Positions 54,471 to 57,961 of a stretch of DNA of 64,000 nucleotides are shown here, one piece after another. The stretch's first letter is position 1, and each line of letters begins with the position of its first letter. The translations under genes were made by a program, and so were the position numbers. Source of the stretch: Bacteroidota bacterium (GTDB lineage Bacteria > Bacteroidota > Bacteroidia > Chitinophagales > Chitinophagaceae). The notes under the pieces were generated by a model, which worked only from the letters and a program-made list of their open reading frames with translations, did no database searches and was not told the origin of the DNA. The stretch spans positions 62,001 to 126,000 of the forward strand of contig JAUZNZ010000013.1 of NCBI GenBank assembly GCA_030706735.1, written 5' to 3'.

Positions 54471-54486
54471 TGTTTCACGTGGAACG
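54471..54486. promoter_or_regulatory. parS-like palindrome 1 (ParB/Spo0J binding site)
   Basis: TGTTTCACGTGGAACG; the reverse strand matches the bacterial parS consensus TGTTCCACGTGAAACA at 15 of 16 positions. It lies upstream of mnmG, a usual neighbourhood of parAB and the origin in other bacteria. Confidence 0.7.
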
Positions 54487-54530
54487 ATTCCGGCCATCCA
54501 ATATTGCGTCCATCGATCGCATTCCCCCTA

Positions 54531-54546
54531 ATTTTCACGTGGAACA
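54531..54546. promoter_or_regulatory. parS-like palindrome 2
   Basis: ATTTTCACGTGGAACA; the reverse strand reads TGTTCCACGTGAAAAT, 14 of 16 matches to parS. Its centre is exactly 60 bases from that of the first site. It ends 34 bases before the mnmG start. Confidence 0.62.
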
Positions 54547-54580
54547 AAAGTGGAACAAAATCGGTAATTTTGCCCCTTCC

Positions 54581-56470
54581 ATGTTTCCTGAATACGATAT
54601 CATAGTAGTAGGCGCCGGACATGCCGGCTGTGAAGCGGCCGCGGCGGCTGCCAACCTGGGTTCTAAGGTCCTGCTGGTAACCATGAATATGCAGACCATC
54701 GCCCAAATGAGCTGTAATCCAGCCATGGGGGGTATCGCCAAGGGCCAAATTGTCCGGGAAATCGACGCGTTGGGGGGATATTCTGGAATCGTAACGGACC
54801 GAAGCATGATCCAATTCAGGATGCTGAACAGATCGAAAGGTCCGGCCATGTGGTCTCCGAGAGCCCAAAATGACCGGATGTTGTTTGCCGCAACCTGGAG
54901 AGAGATCTTGGAAAAGACACCCAATATTGATTTTTACCAGGACATGGTAAGCTCTATCCTAATCCGGAATGGCAAGGCCTGCGGGGTGGTCACTGGCCTG
55001 GGCCACCAAATACATTCCAAAGCGGTCGTGGTCACCAGCGGCACTTTTCTCAATGGCGTGATCCATATCGGAGAGAAGAAGTTCGGAGGGGGGCGGGTTG
55101 CGGAGAAGGCGGCCACTGGCATCACGGAACAGCTGGTATCCCTGGGATTTGAAAGCGACCGGCTTAAGACCGGCACGCCGCCCCGGGTGGATGGCCGGAG
55201 TCTGGACTACAGTAAGATGGACGAGCAGAAGGGAGATGAAGAGATTGTTGGATTCAGCTTCCTCGAAGAAGAGGAACAACGCGATGGGAAGGAACGACTT
55301 AAACCCGGTGATCAACGGAGCTGTTGGATCAGCTATACCAACCAGGCCGTGCACGACCTGCTGAAGACCGGATTTGACAGAAGCCCGATGTTTACGGGCC
55401 GGATCGAAGGAGTAGGTCCTCGTTACTGCCCAAGTATTGAGGATAAGATCAATCGTTTTGCCGATAGGGAGCGACATCAACTGTTCATTGAGCCCGAAGG
55501 ATGGAATACTGTGGAGATCTATGTTAACGGATTTTCCACCTCTTTACCGGAAGATGTTCAATATCAAGCACTTAGACACGTGCCAGGTTTCGAGAACGTG
55601 CGCATGTTCCGACCGGGTTATGCTATTGAATACGATTATTTCCCCCCGACCCAGCTCTCCCATTCCCTGGAGACCAAATTGATCAGGAACCTATTCTTCG
55701 CCGGGCAGATCAACGGGACCACAGGATATGAAGAGGCCGCCTGCCAGGGCCTCATGGCGGGCATCAATGCGCATCAGCAAGTCCGCAATCTGGATCCCCT
55801 GATCCTGAAAAGAAGCGAGGCCTATATCGGGGTGCTGATCGACGACCTGATCAGCAAGGGCACGGAGGAGCCGTATCGCATGTTCACTTCGCGGGCGGAA
55901 TTCCGGACCTTGCTACGGCAGGATAATGCCGACCTGCGGTTGACGGAAACCAGCTATCGCCTCGGTCTGGCATCGCAGGTTCGAATGGACAAAATTGTCG
56001 AAAAAAGGGCTAAAATCGATAAAATTCGGTCAATTTTGGCCGATTTTGCCATAAATCCGGAGGAATCGGGGCAATTTCTGCTTGATCAGAAAACGAGCGT
56101 ACTCACCCAAAAACAGCGAGCCAACCAGGTTCTTTTACGTCCCGGGATCGCCCTTGCCCCGATGATCGAGGCCTTGCCGAGGCTTAAGGCCGCCCTGCCC
56201 GATGCCTCCGCGGAGATCGTCGAGCAAGCCGAGATCCAGATCAAGTACGAGGTATATATAGAGAAAGAGAAAGACCTGGTCAGGAAGATGTCGCAGCTTG
56301 AAGACCTGCTGATCCCTGAAACGTTCAATTACGACCAACTCCCCTCCCTGTCCAATGAAGCCATGCAAAAATTCAAGCGGATTAAGCCGCGTACCCTTGG
56401 CCAGGCCAGCCGGATCAGCGGAGTCAATCCCAGCGACGTCCAGATCCTGATGGTGTACATGGGGCGCTAG
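54581..56470 (+). CDS. mnmG: tRNA uridine-5-carboxymethylaminomethyl modification enzyme MnmG
   Basis: A 629-residue FAD protein. [12 protein letters not shown] (FAD-binding), [23 protein letters not shown] and [12 protein letters not shown] are diagnostic of MnmG (GidA), which with MnmE makes the cmnm5 modification of wobble uridines. The C-terminal helical domain ends [28 protein letters not shown]. The ATG at 54581 is chosen over 54479 because the first 34 codons there span the parS-like sites and do not match the family. It is convergent with nadA. Confidence 0.95.
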
Positions 56471-57447
56471 CGGGCGCTTATCTCCAGCATCCTTTCAATC
56501 GGTCGCCTGGCCGCTTCGCGGATGACGGGATCCATGACGAGTTCGGGCTTTTCATATTTCATGCAGAGATATAATTTCTCGAGGGTATTGAGCTTCATAT
56601 GCGGACAATCATTACAGGCACAATTATTCGTGGGCGGCGCCGGGATGAAGGTCTTATCCGGCGAGGCGAGTTGCATCTGGTGTAGGATGCCTGTTTCCGT
56701 CGCCACGATGAATTCCCTGCCCGGATCGGTTTGCGTGAACTTCAGCAAACCGGTGGTCGAGCCGATATAGTCCGCCTCGCGCAAAACAGCCTCTTCGCAT
56801 TCCGGGTGTGCGATCAACTTTGCCTCCGGGTGGCGGACCTTTAATTTCATGATCTTCTCCAGGCTGAAAATTTCGTGCACCATGCAGGTCCCGTTCCATA
56901 GCACCATGTCGCGTCCCGTACGTTTGATCAGGTAGGCCCCCAAATTTCGATCCGGCGCAAAAATGATCCCCTGATCCCTCGGGACGCTTTCGACGATCTT
57001 CTGCGCATTCGACGAGGTGCAGATGATATCACTGAGCGCCTTTACCTCTGCAGAACAATTAATATAGGAGATGACAAGGTGATTGGGATACTTCTGACGA
57101 AAGGCCCTGAACTCCGCAGCAGGTGCGGAATCCGCCAGACTGCAGCCGGCGCGGAGATCCGGCAGCAGCACTTTCTTGTCAGGGTTCAGGATCTTCGCCG
57201 TTTCCGCCATAAAATGAACTCCGGCAAAAACGATACAGTCCGCCGTTGTTTTGGCGGCCTCCTGGGCTAATCCCAGACTATCACCAATATAATCGGCTAC
57301 ATCCTGAATATCCGGTTCCTGATAATAATGCGCGAGGACGATCGCGTTCCTTTCTTTTTTCAGCGTGTCGATCTCGGCAAATAGATCCAGGTCGGGCGGC
57401 ACCTCGATGTCGAGGAAGCCTTTGATCGCGATGTTAATATCTTCCAT
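56467..57447 (-). CDS. nadA: quinolinate synthase
   Basis: A 326-residue quinolinate synthase, which joins iminoaspartate and dihydroxyacetone phosphate for NAD synthesis. The [4Fe-4S] cysteines are in [19 protein letters not shown] and [11 protein letters not shown]. Its stop overlaps the last bases of mnmG on the opposite strand by 4. Upstream of its start lies the 514-base gene-free region discussed as origin candidate. Confidence 0.93.
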
Positions 57448-57961
57448 AGTATTATTAAAACTATAATTTATTATAAAAGACTACTACTACTAGGACCGTG
57501 AATTGGTGGAAAACAAAATTCGACGAAGCGGGGAAAAATGAAAAATCCTTCTTCTCCACGGCAATCCACATTTATTTAACAACGATAGACCCGGTTTGGA
57601 TCATTGTTTCGTTCATTTATCCACTACGGTGGACCCGATGAGCCTGCGCATAACTATTTTGCCCGGGCCCTGGTCGTCGGAGAGGGATAAGTCGCCGCTT
57701 ACCAACGCAAGATCCCGCGTGACCAGGATCGGAAAAAGTTATCTCCTATTTCCGCTCCATGCCGGGGCCCCGGAAACCGGGGTTATCCACCCGATCCGGG
57801 AGTTATCCCGGCCGCCTGTTGATTGGCGTTTCACGGCAGGGTTTTTCACGCGTTAAACCTCCCTCCGAAGCGATTTTCGCCCGATTTCCACAATTTGTTG
57901 ATAAACTTTTTTACCCCTATTTTTGCCATCCTGTTCAAAAATATTACATAATAATATAGAT
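57448..57961. other. candidate chromosomal replication origin region
   Basis: No gene fits this 514-base gap. It holds several DnaA-box-like words: TTATCCACT (57617-57625), TTATCCACC (57783-57791), TGTTGATAA (57896-57904, reverse TTATCAACA), TGCGCATAA (57645-57653, reverse TTATGCGCA) and CAATCCACA (57562-57570), with weaker TTATCCCGG (57803) and TTATCTCCT (57738). Very AT-rich stretches flank both ends (57448-57480 and 57901-57961). Location between nadA and a foldase, 3 kb from two parS-like sites and mnmG, supports the idea. The right edge also carries a promoter. No DnaA gene is in the window. Confidence 0.5.
57894..57925 (+). promoter_or_regulatory. Bacteroidota-type promoter of the PpiD-like gene
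   Basis: TTTG (57894-57897), 20 bases, TATTTTTG (57918-57925) match the -33/-7 consensus TTTG-N19/20-TAnnTTTG. The start codon at 57962 follows after 36 bases. Confidence 0.65.

Follow-up and report, generated by a model that had tools for sequence, protein, structure and literature searches.

Sites and genes at the mnmG locus

The DNA that was analysed is a stretch of 64 kb (the window), in which mnmG (gidA) occupies positions 54581..56470 on the plus strand. The gene encodes a protein of 629 aa and is recognized by TIGR00136 with 836 bits (cut-off 525). It is followed by nadA on the minus strand (56467..57447; NF006878, 462 bits, cut-off 294), which separates mnmG from a candidate replication origin. 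TAnnTTTG is the -7 box motif of Bacteroidota, and a possible mnmG promoter box of this type, TAATTTTG, is found on the plus strand at 54565..54572, 8 nt before the ATG. A chromosomal parS was taken to be a 16-bp palindrome near TGTTYCACGTGRAACA, present in few and clustered copies, located close to the origin, and served by a cognate ParB with parS-type DNA-contact residues. Two such palindromes precede mnmG. Site 1 (TGTTTCACGTGGAACG, 54471..54486, plus strand) agrees with the degenerate palindrome TGTTYCACGTGRAACA at 15 of 16 positions, and site 2 (ATTTTCACGTGGAACA, 54531..54546, plus strand) at 14 of 16; scored against TGTTNCACGTGAAACA, the values are 14/16 and 13/16. Neither is a perfect 16-mer, and site 2 is without the outer TG. 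The start-to-start distance is 60 bp. A possible extra half-site, GTGGAACA, whose function is presumed, begins 3 bp past site 2 (54550..54557, plus strand). Coordinates and sequences of the two sites are exactly those given in an earlier note on this DNA, and the 15/16 and 14/16 reported there hold against the degenerate palindrome.

The CACGTG core by itself is at chance level in the window (9 occurrences vs 9.5 expected). The remaining seven cores score 7-12 of 16 against TGTTYCACGTGRAACA, which bears out the earlier statement that they do not extend to the palindrome. The site pair exceeds chance expectation. In 200 Markov controls of the window, the density of TTYCACGTGRAA was 0.03 per 64 kb, and no control had two such sites within 100 bp of each other.

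Occurrence in the draft genome

The draft genome has 5,048,036 bases (5.05 Mb) in 100 contigs and is 99.98% complete. A genome-wide search, as the earlier note had proposed, found TTNCACGTGNAA at two places alone, site 1 and site 2, and the reversed-pattern control once. When at most 3 mismatches to TGTTTCACGTGAAACA were allowed, there were 11 matches vs 15 for the control; site 1 alone had as few as 2 mismatches. The many equally good sites that would have spoken against a centromere were not found across the genome; one isolated TGTTCCACGTGGAGCA on contig C14 (11825-11840; positions 825-840 of locus L304) reaches 15/16 on the degenerate palindrome, equal to site 1, and is a possible third parS. 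This copy is inside mechanical minus-strand reading frames, which may or may not be truly coding. The sites are thus few and clustered, with two TTNCACGTGNAA copies 60 bp apart and the isolated match on C14.

Partition genes and dnaA

The earlier note had made its reading depend on a ParB gene in the genome and had called for the location of parAB. A single ParB is encoded on contig C16 (locus L003). It scores 176.7 bits with TIGR00180 (cut-off 58) and has the domains ParB_N, HTH_ParB, and ParB_C. In an ungapped alignment with solved ParB and Noc chains, it reads GKER and SMGH where Noc has GKGQ and TERH, and so holds R and G at two positions that are Q and R in the aligned Noc. According to the excerpted text of one study, R and G at these positions accompany parS, while Q and R accompany the Noc site (PMC7383237). 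A cognate ParB with parS-type DNA-contact residues is therefore present. The best whole-protein NCBIfam score of this ParB belongs to the Noc exception model. A Noc binding site (NBS) was nevertheless rejected on account of the CACGTG in both sites, the R and G in place of Q and R, and the Noc score itself, which is below the cut-off (225 of 315).

A gene for a ParA-like ATPase lies directly upstream of parB on C16; its product passes no cut-off in NCBIfam. SMC is also encoded in the genome (1001.5 bits, above cut-off). The parAB genes on C16 are apart from parS, which is on C6, and dnaA is on C1.

Distribution of the sites across Bacteroidota

The first comparative sample consisted of 80 named mnmG loci (739,286 bases). 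Since the best hits were Chitinophaga, Terrimonas, and other Chitinophagaceae, the host is probably a member of the Chitinophagaceae. The strict word TTYCACGTGRAA was found within 1 kb of mnmG in 59/80 of these Bacteroidota loci, and the sample as a whole held 138 such sites vs 0 reversed-pattern controls. The 21 loci without a site within 1 kb comprise five (L020, L021, L027, L029, and L055) with a near-match of one or two mismatches no more than 600 bp from mnmG, two (L014 and L053) with a three-mismatch version in that range, and 14 others. By title, these 14 are eight Saprospiraceae, Saprospirales, Lewinellaceae, or Neolewinella, two Chitinophagaceae, one Raineya, and three assigned to the phylum only. 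A strict site at mnmG was found in 0/9 loci titled Saprospiraceae, Saprospirales, Lewinellaceae, or Neolewinella (L030, L032, L036, L042, L048, L053, L054, L064, and L074). A lineage-wide shift or an altered site is possible in loci of this type.

The earlier note had placed weight on the spacing of 60 bases. The distance was confirmed by measurement, but its exact value carries no such weight, as the 41 upstream pairs of adjacent sites in the named relatives that are separated by at most 150 bp have spacings of 27-148 bp, with 26/41 at 36-49 bp. Helical phase was not evident among these 41 spacings. An exact 60-bp spacing was therefore rejected as a signature of the element.

A phylum-wide draw gave a site match in 143 of 148 genomes and a reversed control 0-4 times per genome, so that the signal rests in position and not in number. 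An mnmG match was obtained in 147 of the 148 (all except G115). Thirty of the 147 loci were scanned, all from the class of the window, and 28 had a site near mnmG, with 0 controls in 143,354 bases. For the outgroup, one genome was scanned from each of 20 of the 24 families. A site was present within 1 kb of mnmG in 19/20, again with no reversed controls, and eight of these 19 loci have one site on either side of mnmG, each within about 200 bp. Genome-wide counts point in the same direction. Among the fully listed class genomes (22/37, with G133 left out), 55/73 sites are within 1 kb of mnmG, where <0.1 would be expected. The corresponding outgroup value is 42/75, also with <0.1 expected, in 23 of 24 genomes (G013 left out; 22/24 if counted). 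When site loci were gathered without reference to mnmG, 22/29 contained the gene. The closest relatives were covered by a set of 58 genomes, seven of them without an mnmG match; 30 loci, own included, were scanned, and a strict site lies upstream of mnmG in 28. As to the other two, L296 has two one-mismatch sites, and the upstream DNA of L292 is only 26 bp long.

Exceptions were also recorded. In G090 (locus L119), a draft from the same family rated 100% complete, TTYCACGTGRAA was found nowhere in the genome, and no parS-like word was found within 600 bp of mnmG. G063, G036, and G108 have sites elsewhere only, and in G013 no site was found within about 9 kb of mnmG. A separate case is G024, which carries four sites at mnmG on its contig C7 and a cluster of six at a contig end (C1:262-558); this second cluster may mark another replicon or a duplicate of the centromere. 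By these counts, parS tracks mnmG through the phylum; parAB and dnaA do not.

A candidate origin downstream of mnmG

The intergenic region 57447-57922, between nadA and a SurA-like gene and 3 kb from the parS pair, is a candidate replication origin (oriC). The features sought in an oriC with a basal unwinding system (BUS) were an intergenic cluster of DnaA boxes, three or more trios no farther than 16 bp from a DnaA box, and a change in GC skew or a peak in the replication profile. The distance rule for the trios is that of the published BUS search, in which the spacer length peaks at 10-13 and GAT (5'-TAG) is the commonest trio, as far as the excerpted text goes (PMC8287927). The candidate region begins with an AT-rich stretch (57447..57480), which may be the DNA unwinding element and is AT-rich in aligned relatives too. 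It is followed by four DnaA-trios (TAG) on the minus strand (57481..57492, TAGTAGTAGTAG) and, 12 nt from these, by the DnaA box that completes the unwinding unit (TTTTCCACC, 57505..57513, minus strand) and has 2 mismatches. Three further DnaA boxes with 1 mismatch each are found at 57617..57625 (TTATCCACT, plus strand), 57783..57791 (TTATCCACC, plus strand), and 57896..57904 (TTATCAACA, minus strand); the whole window has 13 one-mismatch boxes.

DnaA-box clusters were scored with a hand-set weight matrix. The intergenic cluster in the window reaches 31.8, the top value in 264 kb of own DNA that includes 20 kb around dnaA; the next is 19.9, and the best clusters near the organism's own dnaA score 19.9 and 17.6. 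Five shuffles reached at most 10.6. Across 60 control segments, each 20 kb long and drawn from other genomes, the maximum is 29.5, so that the window is only just above it, as is G117 (29.8). The arrangement of box, spacer, and trios was found in 0 of 100 Markov copies of the window and 0/60 control segments. With TAG or TAA accepted as trios, the unit is present in 17/30 loci, 1.0-1.3 kb downstream of mnmG. The carriers are the own locus and 16/25 relatives of the same genus, with 0/4 among the others, and the spacer is 12 nt in 16/17. An alignment of 18 loci, hand-chosen from the 30, displays the unit as a conserved block. In 10 of the 16 unit-bearing relatives, the unit box is TTATCCAC plus G, T, or A.

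Farther afield, 14 named loci (Cytophagales by title) have 6-14 DnaA boxes per 500 bp at a distance of 1.8-2.7 kb past the downstream end of mnmG. Among the 80 named loci, only 26 have a cluster of DnaA boxes that clearly exceeds the shuffles and is no more than about 4 kb from mnmG; it is downstream in 22 of them.

GC skew

The GC skew of relatives favours mnmG over dnaA as the origin. It fits mnmG better than dnaA in 5/5 one-contig genomes of the class, and dnaA was accordingly rejected as an origin marker. In G007, from the same family, the skew is negative in each of the five windows to the left of mnmG and positive in each of the five to its right (10/10). The best-fit origin interval includes mnmG in G117 (10/10 signs) and G056 (9/10). 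The best fit is off mnmG by about 20 kb in G133 (6/10), by 250-460 kb in G094 (7/10), and by 380 kb in G032 (14/20), and the skew in G125 (6 windows), G114 (4), and G173 (5) is uninformative. DnaA-box clusters are located 17 kb from mnmG in G007 (score 45.9), 32 kb in G117 (29.8), and 20 kb in G056 (35.7); in the last genome, the skew flips within the same 5-kb step as the cluster.

A skew flip was not found on the own contig C6. The skew is positive on both sides, also when genes are separated by strand; only about 6.5 kb of the right side was covered. This is unlike the same-family G007, which flips at mnmG. An inversion or a relocated origin would produce such a pattern. The own-contig skew was therefore rejected as support for an origin and counts against it.

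Alternative explanations

The two palindromes could be an operator of mnmG, read by ParB or by another protein that recognizes the CACGTG core, with segregation uninvolved. Both sites are within 110 bp of the mnmG start, and site 2 is just upstream of the TAATTTTG box. Most Chitinophagaceae loci have a TAnnTTTG box close before the ATG, and their sites, where present, are upstream of it; over all loci, the box is found within 60 nt before mnmG in 39/79. This geometry is not kept, however. In L040, L045, L049, and L061, such a box stands 83-96 nt ahead of the ATG, with both sites in the interval, and in Flavobacteriaceae and other families a site is often just downstream of mnmG. Five loci (L015, L016, L017, L022, and L051) even have a 15-16/16 palindrome inside the mnmG frame at about +388, where it encodes VSRGT/VSRET; eight other printed loci (the window, L008, L010, L013, L014, L018, L019, and L023) read otherwise at this position. 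The in-frame palindrome seems to dictate protein sequence. A site at +387 of mnmG was also seen in G016 (L123). Further points against an operator are that the word is the parS sequence and that ParB has parS-type residues. Sites that vary between promoter, leader, 3' flank, and reading frame argue against an operator, and a model with an operator only was set aside as very unlikely. The conserved feature is the neighbourhood of mnmG and not the geometry of its promoter, which suits the needs of a centromere.

Chance, or the passive retention of words beside a conserved gene, would agree with the chance rate of CACGTG in the window and with the 0-4 reversed-pattern matches in the drawn genomes. 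We consider this explanation negligible. The sites stand in otherwise differing flanks and change in number and place, yet they stay at mnmG; the reversed pattern has no counterpart near mnmG to the 138 sites; the own genome holds TTNCACGTGNAA in this pair alone; and the named, class, and genome-wide counts already contradict chance. A different objection is compatible with the best explanation of the parS sites and concerns the origin. On this view the sites are real parS, but replication now starts elsewhere, and 57447-57922 is either an origin no longer in use or a stretch regulated by DnaA. The positive skew along both sides of C6 speaks for this, as does the own unit box, which has 2 mismatches where 10/16 relatives share one sequence plus a single base. 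Nevertheless, the trio array, the 12-nt spacing, and the three one-mismatch DnaA boxes are in place, and no other cluster in the 264 kb of own DNA, the surroundings of dnaA included, is as strong; had the left arm been inverted recently, the skew would look identical. On balance, a former or merely DnaA-regulated stretch is rather improbable.

Comparison with known systems

Chromosomal ParABS systems include Spo0J/Soj-parS of Bacillus subtilis and ParAB-parS of Caulobacter and Pseudomonas. The two putative parS sites resemble these in the 16-bp palindrome with a CACGTG core, in the small number of clustered sites, in a single ParB with parS-type residues, in the ParA-like gene adjoining parB, and in the presence of SMC. 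They differ in that the own parAB genes are on another contig than parS and that the sites are tied to mnmG. A tblastn search of 20 outgroup loci found no ParA or ParB within about 9 kb of mnmG (less at contig ends).

In other bacteria, mnmG/gidA, rsmG, parAB, and dnaA form an origin gene cluster. The present arrangement is like this cluster in that mnmG stays beside parS, and in the outgroup loci L207, L209, L212, and L214 dnaA is also about 4.6-6.7 kb from mnmG, with the strongest DnaA-box cluster adjoining dnaA. In the window's own class, G002 has dnaA at a distance of 14 kb from mnmG. The arrangement is unlike the origin gene cluster in one-contig genomes G028, G032, G056, G094, G117, and G133, where dnaA is hundreds of kb from mnmG.

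An oriC beside mnmG has been predicted in Flavobacteriaceae with Ori-Finder 2022 and GC skew (PMC11278836, PMC12843772), and dnaA did not fit the skew in one of these reports (PMC11278836). These are single-genome predictions from another family, and parS is not mentioned in the excerpted text of either. In gut strains, parS was identified by consensus in 12/12, two of them Bacteroidetes, and was clustered at ori, which was not always at dnaA (PMC10197239). The excerpt of that study does not name mnmG, and it gives no known condensin for the two Bacteroidetes, whereas SMC is present here. The link to the origin is thus partly known from the predictions of oriC at mnmG and from parS at ori, as far as these excerpts extend. 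With respect to the BUS as excerpted (PMC8287927), the own unit is typical in its 12-nt spacer and four TAG trios, and departs from it in a box with 2 mismatches and an origin that is not beside dnaA.

The element itself is of a known kind. A literature search over the titles and abstract starts of the papers listed, which did not cover the standard survey of parS (Livny et al. 2007), found no description of parS at mnmG in Bacteroidota or of the arrangement tied to this gene.

A probable centromere at mnmG

The two palindromes are very probably chromosomal parS sites and would form a working centromere. The earlier note had proposed a chromosome-partition centromere, and this reading is supported by the presence of ParB, by the near-uniqueness of the sites, and by the way in which the sites follow mnmG. 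It was incomplete in that it lacked the candidate oriC 3 kb downstream and the phylum-wide link to mnmG.

The sites, their near-uniqueness, the partition and SMC genes, the phylum-wide link to mnmG, and the DnaA-box/trio unit shared with relatives are observed; from them we infer that ParB binds and spreads as clamps, that segregation and the loading of SMC follow, and that the origin fires. On the two palindromes, ParB, whose gene follows the ParA-like gene on a different contig, would nucleate and then form CTP-bound clamps able to slide over adjacent DNA. Through these clamps ParA would move the origin region once it has been copied, and ParB would also load SMC at parS. The sites would be beside mnmG because this gene belongs to the origin neighbourhood of Bacteroidota. 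A position of parS near the origin is consistent with the candidate oriC 3 kb away and with a skew origin at mnmG in G007, G117, and G056; the offset fits in three more genomes and the missing flip on the own contig are contrary to it.

A more speculative proposal, which we think doubtful, is that mnmG serves as the fixed address of the Bacteroidota centromere, at which sites turn over and from which parAB and dnaA have gone, and that ParB clamps may set the expression of mnmG. If this were true, a tRNA-modification enzyme would be coupled, through ParB clamps, to segregation and to the copy number of the origin.

To our knowledge, chromosome segregation has been little studied in Bacteroidota. 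One conserved gene may serve as a direct guide to the position of the centromere, and in many cases to the surroundings of the origin, in those genomes of the phylum for which dnaA is of little help. The mnmG locus may also represent a natural experiment, in which the address of a centromere is kept during the turnover of its sites.
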